DNA of 64,000 nt from positions 1 through 64,000 of the forward strand of contig NZ_LSUQ01000001.1 of NCBI RefSeq assembly GCF_001642725.1, given 5' to 3'. The notes under the pieces were generated by a model. The model searched no databases. It saw only the letters and a program-made list of their open reading frames with translations, and was not told the DNA's origin. Position 1 is the stretch's first letter, and each line of letters begins with the position of its first letter. The DNA is from Ferroacidibacillus organovorans (GTDB taxonomy: Bacteria > Bacillota > Bacilli > Alicyclobacillales > SLC66). The position numbers and the translations under genes are program-made. This document shows positions 23,373-34,111 of this stretch, piece by piece.

Positions 23373-24329
23373 TTATACTGGTTTTTTCAAAAATCGCTGC
23401 AAAAAGACGAGTGAGAGAGCACCGACGGGAATCGGTAAATAAAAAGAGATGAAGCGATACATCAGAGTGCCTGCAATCGCCATCGATAAAGGGACGCCGT
23501 AGCTGTGAACGACAGTTGCGAGCACAGCCTCCACGACGCCAATTGTCGTCGGCGCCAGTGACACGAGTACCAAAAGGGACGTGATCGAGTACGAGAGCAC
23601 AGCGAGCCAAAGTGAAATTGGGACGTGAATCGCCTGAAATGCGGTGTACACCATGACCATCCGAACGACATAAACGAGAAAAAGGTATACACAGGCGAAC
23701 AAAAATGGGATGGGATGGTGCTGCATCCGTTTCCATTCTTCTCGAAGAATCGTTAAAGTATGCGAAGCCCGCTTGCTTTTCTGCCCAAAACGCGAAATCA
23801 GAAAGTAAAGAAGCAAAACGCCAAGACTCACAGCTACCGCGATAAGCAGTCCCACTCTAATGAGGTTTGCTTCCTGCCCGTTCGTTGCAAACGCGGCAAA
23901 CAGACAAAGAAGCAGCAATGGGACGAGTGAAACGTAGCTGAGCGCGAGTGACCACAGATTGGTCGCCGTCGTTTCTTTTAAGCCATACCCTAAACGATTT
24001 CCCCAGAAAATGAAAGCGGCAGTCCCTGATGCGCCAGACAAAGGCAAGACAGCGTTATACATGGTTTGCAATGTATAGAGCACAGTGAGCAAAAGGAGCG
24101 GAACCTTTCGCTGCATGGTTGCAAAAAGCACGCGGCCGGATGCCCCTTGTAGCAGAAAGAACAGCAGTTGAAGGGCGAGTAGCGCTGCGACCCCCCAGGC
24201 GTTTGCGTGAAGCAGATAGGGCCAAGAACGCGCCAACTCTCCGCGCTCTTTGTCGATCAGGTAGACGATCAGACCAGCCGTCGCGAAAAGCAAAAAAATC
24301 GACCATGCGCGTGAGAAACGCTTTCTCAA
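23373..24329 (-). CDS. Lysylphosphatidylglycerol synthase TM-region (YbhN/UPF0104) family protein
   Basis: A 318-residue integral membrane protein with about 8 hydrophobic segments. The conserved VLPLSGASGTAAFIFWGNRLGYG stretch near residue 90 and the APTTIGVVEAVLATVV stretch near residue 260 are characteristic of the MprF flippase-like UPF0104 family. It lacks the cytosolic lysyl-transferase domain of full MprF, so it is more likely a lipid-flippase-like protein than an LPG synthase. It is divergent from the P-type ATPase gene across a 141-nt gap. Confidence 0.78.
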   Translation of the reverse strand: MRKRFSRAWSIFLLFATAGLIVYLIDKERGELARSWPYLLHANAWGVAALLALQLLFFLLQGASGRVLFATMQRKVPLLLLTVLYTLQTMYNAVLPLSGASGTAAFIFWGNRLGYGLKETTATNLWSLALSYVSLVPLLLLCLFAAFATNGQEANLIRVGLLIAVAVSLGVLLLYFLISRFGQKSKRASHTLTILREEWKRMQHHPIPFLFACVYLFLVYVVRMVMVYTAFQAIHVPISLWLAVLSYSITSLLVLVSLAPTTIGVVEAVLATVVHSYGVPLSMAIAGTLMYRFISFYLPIPVGALSLVFLQRFLKKPV

Positions 24330-24470
24330 TCCTCATGCAACCTTTCTCACGTTCCGTGCGCTGCGTCTTTCATCGTTTCTGCCAGATATTGTACCACATA
24401 CCTTGGCATTACAGTGTGATACTACAGCAAATAGAGACGTGTTTGTCCATCATAAATCGGAAGAGGGCAT

Positions 24471-27400
24471 TTGCACTTGTCTGAAACAGCAACCGTCATC
24501 CACGAATTGCCAGGACGCATTCGGGTGCGCGTCAAATGGATTCACGTTCGGCAAAATGAGCAGGCGACCGTATTGCGTGCGCTGCGCGAATTGCCAGGCA
24601 TGGTGCGCTTGGAATTAAACACGTTGACAGGAAACCTGTTGATCTTGTTTCAGCAAGGGGAAAATCGTCAAGATCACGTTGTGAAGTCGATACTGTCAAC
24701 CATCGAAGACACCTTGCGCACAACAGAAAATTCGCACGCCGACACTTCGAAAGAAATGTCTGGCGGGACGGTGACCTTACCCTTTAAATATGCGCAAACG
24801 GCTGCTGCACATCTGAGCGTGGACAGGGGTTGCGCAGAGCGAGGATGTGGACTGTCTACTCAAGAGGCGAAAGAGCGTTTGCGCCAGTATGGGGAAAATC
24901 GCTTGCCACTTTTGCGTGATACACCGTGGTGGAAGCATGTCCTAAAGCAAGGTCAGGATGGCATGACGCTTTTGCTGCTCGGGTTGGCGGGTCTATCCTT
25001 TGTCTCAAAGCGTACCGCAGAGGGTAGCGCCCTTCTCATTGTCATCATGGTCAACAGCGTCGTCACAGTCCTTCAGCAACATCGTTCAGGGCGCGACAAG
25101 CGAACGCTTGCCGCAATGACAGACGGAGATGCAATCGTGTTTCGCGATGGACGACGCGAGCATCTTGCTAAAGAACTGCTCGTACCAGGGGATCTCGTTT
25201 GGCTGGAAGAAGGGATACAGGTGCCTGCGGATGGCGAACTGATCGAATCGCATCACCTCGCGTGTGATGAATCCCTTTTAACAGGGGAGCCCCTTGCGAT
25301 CGAAAAAAATGCTGCCGCGCTCAGTGCTAAAACGACGGTGCGTGAACAAAATCCTGACGGCGTGACGTCTGCGTCAGGCGTTGTGATGGGCAGCTTTGTC
25401 GTGCGCGGAAACGGTGTCATGCTCGTCACACAGACTGGTTCTGAGACGGTCATGGGAAAGATTGCAAAAGGACTTGTAGAGCCAACGCTGGTTGAAACGC
25501 CGCTTCAGCGCAGTGTGTCCCGGTTTTCGCGCGCGGTGGTCACTACGATAGGGCTTTCCACTGCGCTTTTGATTCTCGTTGGGATCTTGCGCAAAGAGCG
25601 TGTGGGACCACTGCTCCTCTCAGCGCTAAGCATCGGGGCGTCCGCGATTCCGGAGGGTCTTCCTGTGTTGATTGGCATCGCCTTGACGGCGGGCGTTCGC
25701 CGCATGCAGGCGCGCAAGGCGCTTGTACAAAAGCCGTCGGCGCTCGAAACACTCGGGCGCAGCACGGTGATCTGCTCTGACAAAACGGGAACACTAACCA
25801 AAAATGAGATGACCGTGCGCGTGCTGTTTGACGGCACGCATGTCAGGGTGCTTCCTGATTTGGATGTTCTGTCGACAAGCGATATGGATCAACCGCTTCG
25901 CGCGTCAGGCCACGTGGTCAATCTGCTCACAAAGGCGGTTTTATGCAGTAACGCAGAGTGGGTGGAGGCCGAGCGCGATGGAAAGACAGAGTGGACACTG
26001 CGCGGCGATGCCACCGAAGGGGCGCTTCTTGCGGCCGCCTGCAGAGCGGGAATCGCTCTGCGGGAAATTCGCGCAAAGTATGCGCGCCTAGATGAGCGCC
26101 CCTTTGAGTCGGAGCGCCAGCGTATGAGTGTCATCTGCCAAGGCTTCTCAGGTAGTGAACTGATCGTAAAGGGAGCGATCGAACCCATATTTGCGCGTTG
26201 TGCGTTCTATCAGTCAGAAGACGGGCTCTGTGAATTGGATGACGCGAATCGCGCGCGCATTCTTGCCATCGCGAACGATTTTTCTCGGGAGGCATACCGA
26301 GTGATCTGCCTTGCGTATCGCCCGCTCCCGCACGACGTTCCGGCGCGCGCGGTGGATGAGAACGAAGAGAATCTCATCTTTCTCGGGCTCGTAGGCATGG
26401 AAGATCCGCCGCGTGAACATGTAGAACAAGGCATCCGCGCATGTCGCGATGCAGGGATTCGCGTCTTAATGATGACCGGGGATCACCCGGAAACGGCGCG
26501 CGCGACCGCGCGCAAAATCGGACTTTCGACGTCACAAGCGGAGCGTGTGCTTGTGGGGAGTGAACTCACGGAATACTCGGATGAGGCGTTGCAGCGCGTG
26601 TGCCTTGATGTATCGATTTTTGCGCGCGTCACACCACAAGATAAACTGCGCATCGTCGCGGCGCTCAAAGCGACCGGCCATGTCGTCGTGATGACCGGGG
26701 ATGGGGTCAATGACGCGCTGGCGATTCGTCACGCAGACGTCGGTATTGCCATGGGACAGAGTGGGACGGCGCTTGCGCGCGAGGCGAGTTCGATCACCTT
26801 GGTCGACGACGATTTTAACGCGATCATTCGCGCGGTCGATGAGGGACGGGGGATTCTCGGTAATATCCGCCGGGCGCTTGGATACCTGCTCTCTGGAAAT
26901 CTGGGAGAAATCTTGTTCAGTCTACTCTCCGTTCTCTTCGGGTTACCGCTTCCCTTTGTTCCGATTCAGATTTTGCTGATCAATCTGCTGACCGACGCGG
27001 CGCCGACACTCACGCTGCTTGTGCGCCCCAAACGACACGCGGGCATGTTGCGCGTTCGCGAGGCGGATTTGAATGACCGCAACTTTCTCACGCAACTCGT
27101 TGTACGCGCACTCTCAATCGGTTTCTCAACGTTTTTGCTCTATCGCTCGCTGCTACTGCGTGTCGCACCGCGCATTGCGCAATCGGCTTCGCTCACTACG
27201 CTGGTGCTTGTCCAGTGGTTTCAAGTCGAAAGTTGGCACCACGACGGCGCCGCACCGCAGCGCATCCTTCCACGTCAACGATCCATGCAAGGTGTTCTTG
27301 CTGTCAGCTTTGCCGCGCTCATCGGAGCGCTTTATATTCCGCCGCTTGCAGCGCTTACCGGGCTTCAGCCGCTTTCGCTCGGCATCTTCTTTGCGGCTGT

Positions 27401-27494
27401 TACAACAGCGTACGCCGCCCAACTACTTCATGGAGGGATCATGCAATGCCTGAGACACTTGAAAATAAGCTCCACGCCATCTCTGCAGCACTAA
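24471..27494 (+). CDS. Cation-transporting P-type ATPase (P2-like) with N-terminal HMA-like domain
   Basis: A 1007-residue ion pump. Residues 1-80 (HELPGRIRVRVKWI, then LPGMVRLELNTLTGNLLILF) resemble the HMA_2 fold without a CxxC metal site. The pump core follows: cation N-terminal domain at about 115-180, ESLLTGEP in the actuator domain, PEGLPVL in M4 (near 395), the phosphorylation motif CSDKTGTLTKNE (Asp near 438), MMTGDHPETA, TGDGVNDALA (near 742), and M6 NLLTDAAPT. PEGL and the absence of CPx place it among P2-type (Ca2+/Mn2+-like) pumps rather than heavy-metal pumps, despite the HMA-like head. The start is TTG 24471 or TTG 24477 after GAAGAGGG. Two small genes, a Ca2+/H+ antiporter and TerC follow. 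Confidence 0.88.
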   Translation: MHLSETATVIHELPGRIRVRVKWIHVRQNEQATVLRALRELPGMVRLELNTLTGNLLILFQQGENRQDHVVKSILSTIEDTLRTTENSHADTSKEMSGGTVTLPFKYAQTAAAHLSVDRGCAERGCGLSTQEAKERLRQYGENRLPLLRDTPWWKHVLKQGQDGMTLLLLGLAGLSFVSKRTAEGSALLIVIMVNSVVTVLQQHRSGRDKRTLAAMTDGDAIVFRDGRREHLAKELLVPGDLVWLEEGIQVPADGELIESHHLACDESLLTGEPLAIEKNAAALSAKTTVREQNPDGVTSASGVVMGSFVVRGNGVMLVTQTGSETVMGKIAKGLVEPTLVETPLQRSVSRFSRAVVTTIGLSTALLILVGILRKERVGPLLLSALSIGASAIPEGLPVLIGIALTAGVRRMQARKALVQKPSALETLGRSTVICSDKTGTLTKNEMTVRVLFDGTHVRVLPDLDVLSTSDMDQPLRASGHVVNLLTKAVLCSNAEWVEAERDGKTEWTLRGDATEGALLAAACRAGIALREIRAKYARLDERPFESERQRMSVICQGFSGSELIVKGAIEPIFARCAFYQSEDGLCELDDANRARILAIANDFSREAYRVICLAYRPLPHDVPARAVDENEENLIFLGLVGMEDPPREHVEQGIRACRDAGIRVLMMTGDHPETARATARKIGLSTSQAERVLVGSELTEYSDEALQRVCLDVSIFARVTPQDKLRIVAALKATGHVVVMTGDGVNDALAIRHADVGIAMGQSGTALAREASSITLVDDDFNAIIRAVDEGRGILGNIRRALGYLLSGNLGEILFSLLSVLFGLPLPFVPIQILLINLLTDAAPTLTLLVRPKRHAGMLRVREADLNDRNFLTQLVVRALSIGFSTFLLYRSLLLRVAPRIAQSASLTTLVLVQWFQVESWHHDGAAPQRILPRQRSMQGVLAVSFAALIGALYIPPLAALTGLQPLSLGIFFAAVTTAYAAQLLHGGIMQCLRHLKISSTPSLQH

Positions 27495-27661
27495 AGGATG
27501 CGATTGAAACGAGCGTTGATGCGTTTCAAAGCGGTGTCGATAAAAAGGAAATAGGTCAGTTGTGGAGTGGCATGCTCAGTCAGTTCATGGAGGATATGCG
27601 CAATAAAAGTCGGAGTACCGGGGAAAACTTGCTGGCATGGGTTCGCATGCCGCGCATCTAG
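27446..27661 (+). CDS. Small helical protein, unknown function
   Basis: A 71-residue soluble, helix-rich protein with no recognised family. Its ATG at 27446 lies inside the end of the ATPase gene (49-nt overlap, different frame) and is preceded by TGGAGGGA at 27431-27438 with good spacing. That makes it a real translation-coupled gene rather than a chance frame. The heptad-like pattern (ISAALKDAIETSVDAF) suggests an amphipathic or coiled helix. A link to the pump is inferred from position only. Confidence 0.6.
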   Translation: MPETLENKLHAISAALKDAIETSVDAFQSGVDKKEIGQLWSGMLSQFMEDMRNKSRSTGENLLAWVRMPRI

Positions 27662-27688
27662 CGGATTGCCTCTGAAAGGTTGAGAGAA

Positions 27689-28138
27689 ATGAACAGACTG
27701 CTGTGGGTGGGGCTTTTAAGTTTGGTGATCGCCTCGCGAGCAAAGGACGAGCGCAATTTTCGTTCGCAGGTGGTGCGCACCGTCGTGAATGGCATGCGCG
27801 CTGCAGATCTCGCCAAAGTGTCTGTCGCACGCTTTAAAGAGGTGGGCGAAGACCTATTAGCGGACGTTCGCTATCAGTATGAACAGCGCACGCGAAAAGC
27901 GGCTGATTCTTTACAAGAGTTGCCAAGCCCATCTGACTTTCGTATGATGGACGCGACAATCGAGAGACAGGAGAGCCGCCGACATGCGAATACGAATGTG
28001 GATGCCAGCGACTGGAATTCTGTTGCTCTCCCTCGCGTCTTGGTACGCGAGTGTAAAGGCGTGGAGTCCGCCACTGACGTTTCTACTTTGCGCGCTTACG
28101 ATCATCGCACTCGCGCGACGCATCGGGTCATCCACTGA
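27689..28138 (+). CDS. Hypothetical protein with N-terminal membrane segment
   Basis: A 149-residue product of unknown function. A short hydrophobic N-terminus (LLWVGLLSLVIAS) is followed by a charged helix (FKEVGEDLLADVRYQYEQRTRKAADSL), a YtxH-like layout. It starts at ATG 27689 after AAAGGTTGAGAG, 27 nt after the 71-residue gene. The last 155 nt overlap the antiporter gene in another frame. The tail within the overlap is low in structure and may be non-essential. Confidence 0.5.
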   Translation: MNRLLWVGLLSLVIASRAKDERNFRSQVVRTVVNGMRAADLAKVSVARFKEVGEDLLADVRYQYEQRTRKAADSLQELPSPSDFRMMDATIERQESRRHANTNVDASDWNSVALPRVLVRECKGVESATDVSTLRAYDHRTRATHRVIH

Positions 28139-29042
28139 GCATCTCGCGCGGCACCTTGGCTCGACGCTTGGAGCGTTGCTGTCCGCCACATTTGGAAACA
28201 GCGTTGAACTGATTCTGTCTATCGCGGCGCTGCGTGCAGGACTCTATCGCGTCGTTCAGGCGAGCATCGTGGGCAGTGTCCTCGCTAATCTTCTGCTGAC
28301 ACTCGGTGTCTGCATGATGATCGGCGGCGTCACACAGAAGGTGCAGGTGTTCAGCCGCGCTCGCGCAGGGTTGAACAGTGTGATGCTTTTTATTGCCGTA
28401 TTCGGTCTCTCCATGACGAGTCTATACCAATATTCAGGTACGCACGCAGGCCACGCCAAAGCGCTTGGCGTCAGCATTTCCATCGTGTTTTTACTGATCT
28501 ATGCGCTCGGATTTGTGTTTTCCTTCTTCACACATCGGAGTTTCCTGGTGCCCGCCGAGTCACTCGGTGGGCAAGAGCGTCAACCGGGGTCACTCTTTCC
28601 ACACATGGTTGAATTGATTGTCGCTACGATCCTAGTTTCGATTGTCAGTGAGGGGATTGTCGGTTCAATCGTACCGCTCTCCGCGCGGTTTGGGATCTCG
28701 GAGCCGTTTGTTGGCATGATCCTCTTACCACTGATCGGAATCGCACCTGAATTTTTCTCCGCAATATTACTTGCACGGCGTGGGAATTTGGATGGAAGCA
28801 TGGAGATTGGACTCGGATCAAGTTTGCAAATCGCGCTCTTTGTGGCACCCGCACTCGTGCTTACGGATACGGCGATGCGCGGGAAATTTACACTTGTTTT
28901 TACGCCTGTGGAGGTACTCGTACTCTTTTTGTCGACCCTTTTGGTGAGTCTTGTCTCACTTGACGGGGAGACCCACTGGTACGAGGGAATGATGGTGACG
29001 GCCGCTTACGTCATGCTGGGATTGCTCTTTTTCTTTCAGTGA
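27984..29042 (+). CDS. Calcium/cation-proton antiporter (CaxA/ChaA type)
   Basis: A 352-residue CaCA-superfamily exchanger with about 11 membrane helices, probably exporting Ca2+ against H+. The first alpha-repeat is SATFGNSVELILSI, matching GNxxE. The second repeat reads IGIAPEFFSAILLARRGN, keeping the Glu but with Ile where GNAAEH normally has Asn. Length equals Bacillus ChaA (YfkE). The ATG at 27984 is preceded by GAGAGCCG; ATG 27996 is possible. It overlaps the upstream small gene by 155 nt and shares its direction with the P-type ATPase, consistent with a common cation-homeostasis role. Confidence 0.88.
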   Translation: MRIRMWMPATGILLLSLASWYASVKAWSPPLTFLLCALTIIALARRIGSSTEHLARHLGSTLGALLSATFGNSVELILSIAALRAGLYRVVQASIVGSVLANLLLTLGVCMMIGGVTQKVQVFSRARAGLNSVMLFIAVFGLSMTSLYQYSGTHAGHAKALGVSISIVFLLIYALGFVFSFFTHRSFLVPAESLGGQERQPGSLFPHMVELIVATILVSIVSEGIVGSIVPLSARFGISEPFVGMILLPLIGIAPEFFSAILLARRGNLDGSMEIGLGSSLQIALFVAPALVLTDTAMRGKFTLVFTPVEVLVLFLSTLLVSLVSLDGETHWYEGMMVTAAYVMLGLLFFFQ

Positions 29043-29075
29043 AATGGACAGCGTGGATCAACAGGGGGTGTGGGT

Positions 29076-29762
29076 GTGTACAAAAAAATCACTCGCCACA
29101 CGGTGTGGATGCTACTATTTGCCCCGCTCGCGCTTCTTCTCATGATTCTTTTTTATCGCTCTGGAAGCTGGACAATCCTTCCTACATACCTGGAAAAATT
29201 GGGACATGCCGGAATCGTTTTAAGCTACCTGTTGGTGGTGCTTCAGACGGTGGTCCCGTTTGTCCCCTTTGCCATTCTAGCGGGTATGAATGCGACTGCG
29301 CACGGATTCTTCACAGGCTATCTGGCGACACTTTTCGGGAGTTTCACAGGCGCACTCCTTCTTTATGGCTTGAGCAAAAGTGTGCTGAGACCGCTTTTCA
29401 GCCGCTATTTAAGACGTTTTTTTGCGCGCCACCAAAAATTGCAAACTGCCGTATCCCGGATCGAACAGGCAACGCCGTGGTCCACCTTTTTTACCGTTTT
29501 GGGTTTGCGCTTACAGTTCTGGCTTCCGGCATCGCTCATCGATGTTTCTGCAGGGATTTCTTCCGTGTCCTTTGTACCCTTTCTTTTTGGTACACTCATC
29601 GGACAGGCGATCATGGTTCTACTCGAGAGTTATGTGGGGCATCGCGTGCTACATTTCCAAGCTCACATGGCTGAACTCGCAGGAATCTGCGTGATAGGGG
29701 GGGCCATTTTGGCGACAAATTTCATTTTGGCAAAACGGAGAAGGCGAAAGCTGAACTCATGA
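29076..29762 (+). CDS. TVP38/TMEM64-family (VTT domain) membrane protein
   Basis: A 228-residue membrane protein of the VTT/DedA-like superfamily (B. subtilis YdjX/YtxB relatives). The central FVPFAILAGMNATAHGFFTG and GSFTGALLLYGLSK segments carry the family's Gly-rich re-entrant pattern. The GLRLQFWLPASLIDVSAGISSVSFVPFLFGT region is the conserved C-terminal half. The start is GTG 29076, 8 nt after CAGGGGG; GTG 29070 is too close to it. Its stop overlaps the terC-like start by 4 nt. Function in bacteria is unsettled; lipid scramblase activity is known for eukaryotic relatives. Confidence 0.83.
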   Translation: MYKKITRHTVWMLLFAPLALLLMILFYRSGSWTILPTYLEKLGHAGIVLSYLLVVLQTVVPFVPFAILAGMNATAHGFFTGYLATLFGSFTGALLLYGLSKSVLRPLFSRYLRRFFARHQKLQTAVSRIEQATPWSTFFTVLGLRLQFWLPASLIDVSAGISSVSFVPFLFGTLIGQAIMVLLESYVGHRVLHFQAHMAELAGICVIGGAILATNFILAKRRRRKLNS

Positions 29763-30415
29763 TGCACGCGCTGTATTCCTTTTTTGCCATCCTTCTCACC
29801 GATTTGGTTCTTTCGGGAGACAATGCGTTTGTGATCGCGATGGCGACACTCCATCTCGCCCCAAGCGCGCGAAAGCGCGCGATGCTTTACGGTGCGGCAG
29901 TCACGATTTTGCTCAGGGTGTTACTCACGCTCGTCCTCGGACGCGCGCTCACGTGGCCGTACTTACAGACGATTGGTGGCTTGCTTTTGCTCTACGTCGC
30001 CTATTCCGTCTTGTTTCATAAGGATTTAAAAGTAGCGTCTGACGAGCAAACAAAGCGCGGCGTTCTGTCAACGGTCGCAACCATTCTAATCGCCGATCTC
30101 ACAATGAGTGCAGATAATGTGGTGGCGGTGGCGGGAATTGCGCAGGGCAATGCAGTGATGACGGCGCTCGGTCTTTTAGTGAGTATTTCTCTTTTGATGT
30201 TTGCCAGTTCTTTGATTGCCAGGCTGATGGCGCGTTTGGCGATTCTGCGATGGATTGGGGCAGGCGTTCTCGCGTGCACGGCGGGCGTGATGTTTCACAG
30301 TGATCCAGGGATCGCTCACTTTTTTGGGGCGCGGTCGATCTACGCGCCGATTTTCGGATTTGTACTTGGATCTGTACTCTATGTCGCGTCGCGCAAATGC
30401 AACGTCAGCTTTTGA
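29759..30415 (+). CDS. TerC-family integral membrane protein
   Basis: A 218-residue, seven-helix TerC/YjbE-type protein. The twin metal-binding motifs DLVLSGDNAFVIAMA (residues 15-29) and DLTMSADNVVAVAG (near 115) are both intact. Bacillus TerC proteins export Mn2+, partly to metalate secreted enzymes. The ATG overlaps the VTT gene stop by 4 nt. It is the last gene of the cation cluster, and its 3' end overlaps the convergent HD-domain gene by 37 nt. Mn2+ as the ion is family knowledge, not shown here. Confidence 0.88.
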   Translation: MMHALYSFFAILLTDLVLSGDNAFVIAMATLHLAPSARKRAMLYGAAVTILLRVLLTLVLGRALTWPYLQTIGGLLLLYVAYSVLFHKDLKVASDEQTKRGVLSTVATILIADLTMSADNVVAVAGIAQGNAVMTALGLLVSISLLMFASSLIARLMARLAILRWIGAGVLACTAGVMFHSDPGIAHFFGARSIYAPIFGFVLGSVLYVASRKCNVSF

Positions 30416-30978
30416 GCAAACGCGATCTGCCAAAAATCCGCTTTCTTTTTTAACAGATGATCTACATCGTCAGGTGAGAGTCCGCTCACAACGAGTGTGA
30501 CCTCGCGGGAGGTGCGCTTGATCTCGTGAAGGACGGCCGTCCCGAGATGTGATCTGTCGAGACCGTCGGCGACGCGCAGGCATGCGCAACAGGCGAGCAG
30601 GTCGCGCGCTCTGCCAATTTTGTCGATCCAAGAAGGTTTAACGCTGCGCCTGTGATAGAAACACAATGTTGCGACATCCTCTTTGAGTGTCGCATCCCAC
30701 GTGGCCGTCTCGCGCGCGTGTCGGACGATGTAGCGGGAGTGCTTGTGATGGTTTCGCGAATTTATGGAATGCCCCACATCATGGAGATAGCCAGCCAATT
30801 CGAGTGTTAATTGGGCGGCTTGCTGCGCCGCTTCGCCACGCATGCCGAGATAGAGCGTTTGCGCGAACGAGGCGACGCGCATGCAGTGCGCGCGATCGGT
30901 TTGAAAATGGTTCATCGCGCGCAGCGCGTCATGTTTGTATTTTGCGAGTGACAGAGCGACCGAAGTGGGATCTTTCAT
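30379..30978 (-). CDS. HD-domain phosphohydrolase (Ppx/GppA C-terminal type)
   Basis: A 199-residue protein with an HD metal-binding domain: RAHCMRVASFAQTLY (first His), ELAGYLHDVGHSIN (HD pair) and later LRVADGLDRSHLG. The pattern is that of the HD-like domain fused to the C-terminus of Ppx/GppA phosphatases, here as a stand-alone gene at the end of an operon that starts with ppx/gppA. The ATG at 30978 overlaps the stop of the preceding kinase-like gene by 4 nt. It may act on a nucleotide or polyphosphate-related substrate; that is inference. Confidence 0.75.
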   Translation of the reverse strand: MKDPTSVALSLAKYKHDALRAMNHFQTDRAHCMRVASFAQTLYLGMRGEAAQQAAQLTLELAGYLHDVGHSINSRNHHKHSRYIVRHARETATWDATLKEDVATLCFYHRRSVKPSWIDKIGRARDLLACCACLRVADGLDRSHLGTAVLHEIKRTSREVTLVVSGLSPDDVDHLLKKKADFWQIAFAQKLTLHLRDAT

Positions 30979-31673
30979 TTGCGAATCAGGCGTGAGACGT
31001 GCGTGCGCAGGGTCTCCTGCACCTCTTCAATCGCGCGTGTGCCGTCAAGTGTAACAAAATGATAGTCTTCTGCCAGTTCTTCAAACTGCTGTGCGCAAAG
31101 AGACTGATAGCGATGAAAGCTTTCAAACATGTCCGTCGACAAAGAGAGGTCCATGCCAGATTCCCAGTAATCGAGAACGCCGCGTTTTTGAAAATGGCGA
31201 TGCAGCAACACTTCGGGTGTCATATGCAAATAAAACGTGAGATCCGGAATGCGCGCAAAGCCAAACAGCTCTTCTAGCCAGTCAGGATCGGCGCCACGCA
31301 CGGCGTCGCGAACCATCAGCGTAAATATGTAACGATCCGCAAGCACGATAAATCCTGCCCGAAGCGCCGGAATGATCTTGTTTTCCAATTGATCTGCAAA
31401 ATCGGTCGCGTAAAGCAGGCTGAGTGTCGTCTTGCCAAGGACATTGCCCTCTTTTGCTTGATCGATAACACCGCTGACGAGGGTGGAACGCTTGATCCCT
31501 GTGTCCATGACCGCGTGTCCTTCATACTCGAGCCACTGTTTTAATAAAAATGCCTGGGTCGATCGCCCTGAACAGTCGGCGCCTTCGATCACAATCAGCT
31601 TTCCGGCGTACGTCTCATCCTTCAGATAGGGGAGACCTGCGCCGTAGTAGGTTTTCTTCGACTCATCCATCAC
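30975..31673 (-). CDS. Thymidylate-kinase-like protein with altered P-loop
   Basis: A 232-residue P-loop protein of the dTMP kinase fold. The Walker A region reads IEGADCSGRSTQ: the invariant Lys of GKST is replaced by Arg (codon CGA on the minus strand). The DRY motif (VLADRYIFTLMVRDAVRGADPDW) is intact. It is a diverged paralogue of the gene just upstream, sharing LRAGFIVLADRY and the LSLSTD..ESF region. The housekeeping tmk is normally next to holB, so this pair is probably specialised. Order is ppx, kinase A, this gene, HD gene. With the changed P-loop it may bind nucleotide poorly. Confidence 0.72.
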   Translation of the reverse strand: MMDESKKTYYGAGLPYLKDETYAGKLIVIEGADCSGRSTQAFLLKQWLEYEGHAVMDTGIKRSTLVSGVIDQAKEGNVLGKTTLSLLYATDFADQLENKIIPALRAGFIVLADRYIFTLMVRDAVRGADPDWLEELFGFARIPDLTFYLHMTPEVLLHRHFQKRGVLDYWESGMDLSLSTDMFESFHRYQSLCAQQFEELAEDYHFVTLDGTRAIEEVQETLRTHVSRLIRK

Positions 31674-31696
31674 CGTAGCGCTCCTCTCGTCTTTGC

Positions 31697-32404
31697 TTAT
31701 CGCGTGGTTAAATGATAGGGAAGTTCATAATCCGTCAGATGCTTCTCGACGATCTCGCGCACGATGCGCTGTTGTTCTTCAATCGGTTTTGTCGCGTCGA
31801 CGACCGTAAAATGCTCCTCATCGATCATCGCGTCATAGTGATCCTTGATTTTTCCCTGAAACAACTTGAAGCTCTCGATGGGGTCGGTCGAGAGACCGAG
31901 ATCGAGACCCGCCTCATGGTATTTTAACTGTGGACGCCCACTCAAGATGCGATCGAGCGAAACGGCGAGCGGTGTCTGGAAATAAAAGCTGACCGTTGGT
32001 TTGACCGCGAATCCATACATGTTCTTTACCCAGTCCGGGTCACACCCGCGCGCCATGTCACGCGCATACGCGGTGTATACATAGCGGTCAGCAAGGACGA
32101 TGTAACCTGCGCGCAAATAGGGTAGCATCATCTTTTCATAACGGTCGGCAAAATCGCACGCGTGAATCAGACTGAACGTCGTTGGCGTCAACAAATTCTT
32201 TTTCTTCGCCTTTTTATTCGCCGATTTGATGAGTTCACTGGAATTCCACTCTGTAAAAAAGACAGGGTATCCGCGGTCTTCGAGCCAACGTTTCAACAAG
32301 TAAATTTGCGTGCTTTTTCCTGAGCCGTCGTTTCCTTCTACAATAAAAAGTCTCCCCGGATAATGCATGCTGCGGCCGAGTCCACGTGCTTTTTTTAGTC
32401 GCAT
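31697..32404 (-). CDS. Thymidylate-kinase-like protein
   Basis: A 235-residue P-loop kinase of the dTMP kinase fold with a normal Walker A (FIVEGNDGSGKSTQ) and DRY motif (VLADRYVYTAYARDMARGCDPDW). The segment DWVKNMYGFAVKPTVSFYF and the C-terminal half differ from ordinary Tmk, so the nucleotide substrate is uncertain. The ATG at 32404 follows AAGGAG with a long 12-nt spacing. The frame is open further upstream into ppx. It begins 5 nt after the ppx stop, so it is co-transcribed. Confidence 0.75.
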   Translation of the reverse strand: MRLKKARGLGRSMHYPGRLFIVEGNDGSGKSTQIYLLKRWLEDRGYPVFFTEWNSSELIKSANKKAKKKNLLTPTTFSLIHACDFADRYEKMMLPYLRAGYIVLADRYVYTAYARDMARGCDPDWVKNMYGFAVKPTVSFYFQTPLAVSLDRILSGRPQLKYHEAGLDLGLSTDPIESFKLFQGKIKDHYDAMIDEEHFTVVDATKPIEEQQRIVREIVEKHLTDYELPYHLTTR

Positions 32405-32408
32405 ATCG

Positions 32409-33914
32409 TTACGGTGCTCCTTTTTCTGATGAGATGGAAAGCGGGAATCCAAACGCTTTGCGAAAGAGTGGAAGCAAATCATTTGCCGCCTGATACTCAA
32501 GATCGCCTTCGTCCGCGTGCACGTAAAGGACAGCCTGTTTCTTTTCGGTCTTCAGTCGAACCGCCGAAACGCGCTTTTCGTGGCGGCGATCAAGCGCTTC
32601 GGCAAGGCGGACAATCACGCCGATTTTTGTGATTTCTGTAAGATCGTCTTCACTGAGCAAAGTGCGAAACGGCGCACACTGCTTCCGTGTCCTGTTGCGT
32701 CCCTTGTAGGAGGCGGCTGCCGCGACCATCAACAGTTCGCGATGCGTAAGTCCATAAAGGGTGCCGTTTAAGATCAAATAAAAGGTGTGGCGGTCAAAAT
32801 CATAATAGTGAATGTGAATCCCGACACGATGGAGCATAGCGGCCGCATAGAGCAGGTGGAGCCGCGCAGGATCAAGATCACCTCGCTCGCAAAGCGGCGT
32901 TGCAATGGCGAGTGCCAAGTGTGTCACGGTTTTTGCGTGATCGATTGGAACGCGACAGCGTTCGAGCAGATTGTGGACGCTTGTCTCAAGAACGCCTTCG
33001 GTAAGCAGACCGTTGTCAGTGCCTAAGACGCGTGTAAAAAATGTCCCGTCGCGCAGCCCGCGGCCGCTGATGCGCAGCACGGAGGACGCGGTATAGCGCA
33101 TGAGGCTGAGGAGAATCATACCGCCGGGAACGATCAGATCGGCGCGGTCTTTAGAGAGTCCCTCCACCTTTTTGCGCCGGGCGAGCGGTATGTCACCCAG
33201 GTAGGCAACCGTTTCCTCGACATCTGTTTGCTGCATGAAATAATTATGCGTAAGCGCGAGGGGGTAGCCGCTGAGTCCTTGGTGGACGCGCGCAATCGTG
33301 CGGATGGTGCCGCCGATCCCGATCAGTTCCATGTTCTTCGCCTGCGTGAGTAGTTCCACCTGCGGGAAAAGGGTTTGGATGCGCTGCATCATTTGCTCGC
33401 GAGACAGTTGACCTAGATCGCGATTCGCGGTGACTGCGCCAATGGGAAAGGAGTGTGACGCGATAGCCGCTCCGCTCCTGACAAGGGTGACTTCGGTGCT
33501 GCCGCCGCCAATGTCGACGAGCAGCGCATCACAAAGCTTCATGGTGTTGGCCACCGCGCTAAAACCGAGCGCGGCTTCTTCGACGCCAGGGATGACTTCG
33601 ACGTGAATCCCGGTCTCGCGCTCAATGCGCTCGACGATCTCTGCGCGGTTCTTGGCTGCACGTAAAGCGGCGGTTCCCACGGCTTCGATGCGTGTGGCGT
33701 GGTGGGCGCGGCAAAGTCCGATGAAACCTTGTAGTTTCTCGATCAGGTCGCGAATGGCATCCTCTGCGATCGCTCCATCACGCTTGATCTGTTGGCTGAG
33801 TCGCGGAGATGCCTTCTGTTCATCAAGCACGTAATAGGCGCCACTTTGCAAGGAAGCAATGATCGAGAGACGCATGGAGTTTGAACCGATATCAATGATC
33901 CCGGTAACGTTCAC
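32409..33914 (-). CDS. Ppx/GppA-family exopolyphosphatase / guanosine pentaphosphatase
   Basis: A 501-residue sugar-kinase/Hsp70-fold phosphatase acting on inorganic polyphosphate and/or pppGpp. Motifs are IIDIGSNSMRLSI at the N-terminus, EAALGFSAVA, the DIGGGSTEVTLV phosphate loop, and GIGGTIRTIA. The C-terminal 190 residues form the HD-like domain of long family members. The start is GTG 33914, 7 nt after AGGAG, and the family homology starts there. The frame is open to 34100 and would add a TNALRY hexapeptide repeat, judged not to be translated. First gene of the operon with two kinase-like genes and an HD gene. Confidence 0.88.
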   Translation of the reverse strand: MNVTGIIDIGSNSMRLSIIASLQSGAYYVLDEQKASPRLSQQIKRDGAIAEDAIRDLIEKLQGFIGLCRAHHATRIEAVGTAALRAAKNRAEIVERIERETGIHVEVIPGVEEAALGFSAVANTMKLCDALLVDIGGGSTEVTLVRSGAAIASHSFPIGAVTANRDLGQLSREQMMQRIQTLFPQVELLTQAKNMELIGIGGTIRTIARVHQGLSGYPLALTHNYFMQQTDVEETVAYLGDIPLARRKKVEGLSKDRADLIVPGGMILLSLMRYTASSVLRISGRGLRDGTFFTRVLGTDNGLLTEGVLETSVHNLLERCRVPIDHAKTVTHLALAIATPLCERGDLDPARLHLLYAAAMLHRVGIHIHYYDFDRHTFYLILNGTLYGLTHRELLMVAAAASYKGRNRTRKQCAPFRTLLSEDDLTEITKIGVIVRLAEALDRRHEKRVSAVRLKTEKKQAVLYVHADEGDLEYQAANDLLPLFRKAFGFPLSISSEKGAP

Positions 33915-33990
33915 AGATGCACTCCTTGCATAGAGAGATTTCAAAGGGATTTCACGGATCAACCCGTGCGTGCGCGCGAGGCGCACATGG

Positions 33991-34098
33991 CGGTTCGTGT
34001 AACGCAGAGCGTTCGTGTAACGCAGAGCGTTCGTGTAACGCAGAGCGTTCGTGTAACGCAGAGCGTTCGTGTAACGCAGAGCGTTCGTGACACGCGGC
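33991..34098. repeat. 18-bp tandem repeat array (five copies plus a decayed sixth)
   Basis: The unit GCGTTCGTGTAACGCAGA is repeated head to tail: 33991-34008 (first two positions changed), then four exact copies to 34080, then a degenerate copy 34081-34098. Each unit contains the inverted repeat GCGTT-n5-AACGC. The array lies between ppx/gppA and the divergent 98-residue gene, and inside the predicted ppx leader. Confidence 0.92.
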
Positions 34099-34111
34099 AC
34101 ACGTTTTCTGT

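Follow-up and report, generated by a model that had tools for sequence, protein, structure and literature searches.

In Bacillus subtilis the Ca P-type ATPase YloB is expressed in sporulation and affects spore heat resistance and germination (PMC10574481), and a sporulation role was suggested for the antiporter YfkE/ChaA (PMC10227063; for both precedents see also PMC4726428). Among small proteins encoded with P-type ATPases, DUF1490 is PacL, and DUF6110 proteins are called PacL-like and are associated with P1B6 pumps (PMC9374683, PMC13043812). Long P-type pumps such as CtpH/CtpI have been described as uncharacterised enigmas (PMC10654040). Here we analyzed a stretch of 64,000 nucleotides (nt) from Ferroacidibacillus organovorans (the window; contig NZ_LSUQ01000001.1, positions 1 to 64,000), in which six co-directional genes at 24471-30415 encode a P2-type ATPase with an HMA_2 head, two small proteins termed smA and smB, a Ca2+/H+ antiporter, a VTT protein and TerC. 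Because of a sporulation-type element upstream and a Bacilli-wide pump module seen only in genomes with the sigma factor SigG, the cluster is regarded as a candidate for moving calcium during spore formation or germination. It consists of the following features:

24396..24424, + strand: SigG-like promoter-like element ACATA-N17-GATACTA (sole window match; 17-nt spacing common to the family)
24471..27494, + strand: P2A-type cation ATPase with N-terminal HMA_2 head (Pfam/NCBIfam; SERCA-type M4/M5/M6 residues; head model)
27446..27661, + strand: smA, 71-residue helical-hairpin protein, predicted soluble, without Pfam model (profile search, alignment, predicted structure)
27689..28138, + strand: smB, 149-residue protein with N-terminal hydrophobic segment, distantly PacL-like (sub-threshold DUF5132/DUF1490/DUF6110 profile matches; position)
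27984..29042, + strand: Cax-type Ca2+/H+ antiporter of the CaCA family (TIGR00378, PF01699)
29070..29762, + strand: VTT (DedA-type) membrane protein (PF09335 over cut-off)
29759..30415, + strand: TerC-family protein, YjbE type (PF03741 and TIGR03717 over cut-off)

An earlier reading of the same DNA (the original prediction) had described these six genes as a one-strand, mostly overlapping cluster for Ca/Mn detoxification or secretion metalation. All six genes were found in place, and three of the five junctions overlap (pump/smA by 49 nt, smB/antiporter by 155 nt, VTT/TerC by 4 nt); gaps of 27 nt separate smA from smB and the antiporter from VTT. The long overlap at 27984-28138 is out of frame, adds about 50 residues to smB and occurs in the window and its congener G001, not in the other family genomes. 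The likely start codon of the pump is TTG 24477, 9 nt downstream of the end of GAAGAGGG, and not 24471; for VTT, GTG 29076 is a possible start.

The pump and the small proteins

Pfam and NCBIfam models identified the domains E1-E2_ATPase, Cation_ATPase_N, Cation_ATPase_C and HMA_2 in the pump of 1007 amino acids (aa). The P-type catalytic motifs TGE, DKTGTLT and GDGVND are present, and the P2-type core predicted from PEGLP and DKTGTLT was confirmed by the presence of both. The cation residues are of SERCA type in M4 (IPEGLP), M5 (GNLGE) and M6 (NLLTD), with the M8 Glu of SERCA exchanged for Gln, and the patterns IPEGLP, GNxxE and NxxTD are kept in nearly all pumps of the module described below. 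Judged from the sequence, the M4, M5 and M6 residues fit Ca2+ or Mn2+ better than P1B metals. The pump missed the NCBIfam SERCA/PMR1 equivalog cut-offs (TIGR01522, 496.6 against 798.3; TIGR01116, 438.7 against 703.4). Its closest solved relatives are LMCA1, SPCA and SERCA, with LMCA1 nearest for the core.

The HMA_2 head, located at about 24483-24758, scored 31.3 bits at a cut-off of 30 and contains no cysteine. Since 20 aligned heads conserve PGRxR and TG and not cysteine, the form without CxxC is the normal one here; the original prediction was correct in its description of the head, in which the missing motif is no anomaly. An AlphaFold2 model of the head shows the order strand-strand-helix-strand-strand-helix with a mean pLDDT (predicted local distance difference test) of 85.5, and its Foldseek matches were weak, MerP and HMA domains being among them. 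In 16 of the 18 family genomes there is also a headless P2 pump of about 900 aa, so that the cluster pump is an additional one.

No Pfam model matched smA consistently across 31 members. The protein is without a strongly hydrophobic segment, and a confident structure prediction (mean pLDDT 92.9) yielded a two-helix hairpin; by prediction, smA is thus a soluble protein of this shape. Searches for a known family or fold gave no match in Pfam, PDB sequences or PDB folds, and a comparison with smB found no relationship.

smB is too divergent for single-sequence searches beyond the genus, and the family members were located by position. In distant members a single, clear N-terminal hydrophobic segment (1.4-2.4; weaker in window smB, 0.95) is combined with the conserved helix REExEDIVAEAQFERM. 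Sub-threshold DUF5132 matches were obtained for 18 of 29 members (best 2.4e-5) and DUF1490 matches for two of 29 (best E 0.005); two distant smB reached the 25-bit cut-off of DUF5132 (PF17195), which window smB missed. Across 399 Bacilli genomes eight of nine DUF5132 matches were smB. Family-type smB can be aligned in register with DUF6110 proteins from Bacilli with small genomes, and one of these proteins adjoins a P-type ATPase; the support is modest (49%) and weaker with a wide alignment. A further anchored protein of the distant loci, smC, is related to smB (hhalign 93%). No C-terminal Asp/His metal-binding motif of PacL is visible in the smB alignment, and PacL-like DUF6110 proteins also have none (PMC9374683, PMC13043812). 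As for PacL and PacL-like proteins, smB is encoded beside a P-type ATPase, both in the family and at the distant loci. The sequence data thus present the PacL-like character of smB as a supported resemblance, not as proven membership. None of the papers searched tied DUF5132 or DUF6110 to Ca pumps. The description of the two small proteins as unknown agrees with the profile search suggested with it: neither window protein has an accepted Pfam or NCBIfam match.

Two separable blocks and a Bacilli-wide module

Gene order and flanks of the complete six-gene unit are the same in seven family members (the genome of the window, G001, G005, G007, G011, G014 and G015), and in G006 the unit is present up to the contig end. 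As the flanking genes are syntenic as well, little weight can be put on order by itself. Retention, gain and loss in relatives affect whole blocks, and the grouping thus exceeds chance. G009 and G017 contain Cax-VTT-TerC without pump, smA and smB, and in G008, where all six genes are missing, the flanking genes for NYN and HD proteins lie side by side. Scattering of the genes among relatives, which the original prediction had named as the result that would speak against it, did not occur within the family. The single unit it proposed stands with respect to gene order, but consists of two separable blocks, pump-smA-smB and Cax-VTT-TerC, the latter being a family-specific addition.

In this second block the antiporter exceeded the cut-offs of Na_Ca_ex (PF01699) and of TIGR00378 cax (265.5 bits against 211.15), the VTT protein that of VTT_dom (PF09335), and TerC those of PF03741 and TIGR03717 (YjbE; 167.2 bits against 134.8). 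An assignment of the VTT protein as UptA was rejected, the UptA models scoring far below cut-off.

A profile search detected smA in 33 of the 399 Bacilli genomes (a 34th row with E 0.007 was discounted). smA and an HMA_2 pump (frame >900 aa) coincide in 28 genomes, with five and four discordant genomes (Fisher p about 1e-33; kinship among the genomes inflates this value and all other co-occurrence, promoter and SigG statistics). At 26 of 28 loci outside the family a gene for an HMA_2-type pump, mostly of 1392-1643 aa, lies near smA. The usual order there is pump, smB, smA, whereas it is pump, smA, smB in the window's family, and smC is located upstream, usually divergent. Of the four pumps lacking smA, three (G029, G044, G124) retain smB and smC. 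The carriers at five named loci include Aneurinibacillus, Ammoniphilus and Brevibacillus. The neighbourhood conservation across Bacilli that was to be checked therefore applies to the pump with its small proteins, but not to Cax, VTT and TerC. On plasmids, our search found no smA and only cores of the long module pump.

The long N-terminal half of the distant module pumps, compared for the 1534-aa pump of L071 (12143-14062), weakly resembles heavy-metal P1B pumps (23-26% identity), and at L070 the HMA_2-headed half (642 aa) is a separate gene. Paralogues of P-type ATPases without TGE, DKTGT and GDGVND, but with M5 GNxGE kept, directly adjoin the active HMA_2 pump in three genomes (L068:3674-6442, L070:3375-6146, L073:44-1621) and are apparently dead pumps paired with live ones.

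Next to the cluster, a divergent LPG_synthase_TM (MprF-flippase-like) gene at 23373-24329 has its upstream region in common with the pump; it is absent in G008 and G017, both also without the pump block. On the other side a convergent cluster (30379-34100) comprises two thymidylate-kinase-like genes, Ppx/GppA and HD/Ppx-GppA_III, with a perfect 18-bp tandem repeat of 5.4 copies (33993-34089) in the 5'-terminal part of the Ppx/GppA frame. The same thymidylate-kinase-like/Ppx-GppA/HD cluster lies beside a long HMA_2 pump in a distant family (G091, L112:9693-12549), and a link between the two is possible.

The promoter-like element and the role of the cluster

SigG is the forespore sigma factor, and its consensus is GHATR-N17/18-CATNHTA, with GNATA as the usual -35 sequence. 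Each of the eight family genomes examined has an element of the pattern GNATA-N17-NATACTA upstream of its pump gene, with the spacer constant at 17 nt; one of these elements is weaker, L031 has TAAACTA, and one relative has CATACTA. The window element is the sole match in 64 kb, with 0.01 expected by chance. SigG-like matches upstream of the distant pumps exceed first-order shuffles (Kolmogorov-Smirnov p 4e-8 forward; reverse-strand control 0.56). SigG was over cut-off in 33 of 33 smA carriers compared with 29 of 47 other genomes, and in the window's genome it scored 497 bits with TIGR02850 (cut-off 457). In two pump-less relatives the sporulation element upstream of cax was weak (L107, GGATA-N17-TATACTG, p 0.05) or absent (L105). 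A CopY/BlaI-type operator upstream of the pump was also considered and rejected, as no palindrome is kept.

Our best explanation, which we rate at about an even chance, is a sporulation or germination operon for the efflux of Ca2+ (or Mn2+), built of two blocks and with SigG as the best-fitting sigma factor. The six genes would form one operon, its first block being the local form of the Bacilli-wide module. The pump would expel Ca2+ (or Mn2+) from the cytosol at the expense of ATP, and smB, presumably membrane-anchored, may assemble or stabilize it in the membrane. smA would probably dock from the cytosol, with the HMA_2 head as a possible site, and as a regulatory subunit tune activity or placement of the pump, and the second block would contribute proton-driven Ca2+ efflux and Mn2+ handling. 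Because the promoter appears to be of the sporulation type, the proteins would be located in the forespore or spore inner membrane, where they could control free Ca2+ or Mn2+ during loading of the core with Ca-dipicolinate or its release in germination.

Several points weigh against this proposal. The window element departs from the SigG consensus at -35 (ACATA instead of GNATA) and in the first -10 base; the SigG-like model was weighted by hand with the family sequences already known, and was left unchanged for the distant loci. About half of the distant pumps are without a convincing match, comparable elements precede just two of four genes for small acid-soluble spore proteins in the same genome, and many smA-free Bacilli sporulate too. 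Window smB stayed below the DUF6110 cut-off (E 0.18) and has no curated PacL-type Pfam match. Moreover, export across the inner spore membrane would work against Ca2+ loading of the core, so that a germination role, maintenance of low free Ca2+ or expression in the mother cell have to be weighed. Compartment and timing are the weakest links of the proposal.

The original prediction of a dedicated Ca/Mn unit holds in so far as kept order, overlaps and a Ca-type pump with Cax indicate a divalent-cation unit. A vegetative detoxification role along its lines, in which pump and antiporter lower cytosolic Ca2+, TerC exports Mn2+, the small proteins stabilize the pump and sporulation is irrelevant, seems unlikely, if still worth serious consideration. 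The transporter content, the status of the pump as an addition to the headless one and the patchy presence of the genes, as expected for an accessory tolerance function, are in line with it. Nothing specific favours it, however: the sporulation-type element is conserved upstream, all smA carriers have SigG, and no Mn or other riboswitch was matched with Rfam in the window or seven related loci, although some TerC genes of YjbE type are preceded by a Mn riboswitch. Detoxification or metalation is one possibility among others; what is new is the sporulation link, together with the Bacilli-wide module.

Transcription in the mother cell by SigE or SigK is rather improbable. The pump would then reside in the outer forespore membrane and move Ca2+ from the mother cell to the intermembrane space, from which it would later be taken up together with dipicolinate. 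The direction of export fits better there, and a -10 of the CATACTA type is also compatible with mother-cell sigma factors, but SigG is the best match for -35 GNATA and a spacing of 17-18 nt.

Very little speaks for a TerC-centred system for metalation of secreted proteins, to which the other transporters supply metal. The unit ends with TerC, and the B. subtilis TerC proteins MeeF/MeeY metalate exported enzymes (PMC10550928); the TerC found here, however, is of YjbE type, the unit contains no secretion or metalloenzyme gene, and the pump module occurs elsewhere without TerC. A neighbourhood without function, held together by family-wide gene-order conservation as the syntenic flanks might suggest, is already contradicted by the loss of the genes as blocks between kept flanks and by the recurrence of pump, smB and smA in other settings.

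Comparison with known systems

The window pump resembles YloB of B. subtilis (PMC10574481) in its P2A core and proposed sporulation link, but differs by its HMA_2 head and partner genes, and the family keeps a separate headless P2 pump. With YfkE/ChaA the antiporter shares the Cax family, whereas its unit here also includes a Ca-type ATPase, VTT and TerC. LMCA1 of Listeria has no head, and its M5 position is Ala where the window pump keeps Glu. The distant module pumps share with the FUPA24 pumps CtpH/CtpI (PMC3573892, PMC10654040) a length of about 1.5 times the usual and P-type motifs in the C-terminal part; they are extended, in contrast to the short window pump, which is without a long N-terminal extension. 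The partner genes provide a handle on long pumps of this kind, and the promoter element makes a role of Ca2+ pumps in sporulation or germination testable, with carriers in the culturable genera Aneurinibacillus, Brevibacillus and Ammoniphilus.

The PacL/Ctp effluxosomes of Mycobacterium (PacL1-CtpC; PMC9374683, PMC13043812) contain, like the smB loci, a small protein with N-terminal membrane segment (putative in smB), an acidic, Ala-rich cytosolic helix and a P-type ATPase as partner. In contrast to them, the window pump is of P2A (Ca) and not of P1B type, smB has no visible C-terminal metal-binding motif, and smA is present as an extra soluble partner, with smC as a second anchored protein in distant Bacilli. 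Taken together, we tentatively suggest that the HMA_2-headed P2A pumps of spore-forming Bacilli may be multi-subunit, sporulation-expressed Ca2+ (or Mn2+) machines, with a PacL-like scaffold and smA as obligate soluble subunit, which govern Ca2+ in spore formation or germination. PacL-type scaffolding has so far been described for heavy-metal P1B pumps; if the suggestion is true, a PacL-like protein and an undescribed soluble partner on Ca-type pumps would carry the effluxosome concept over to hard divalent cations.

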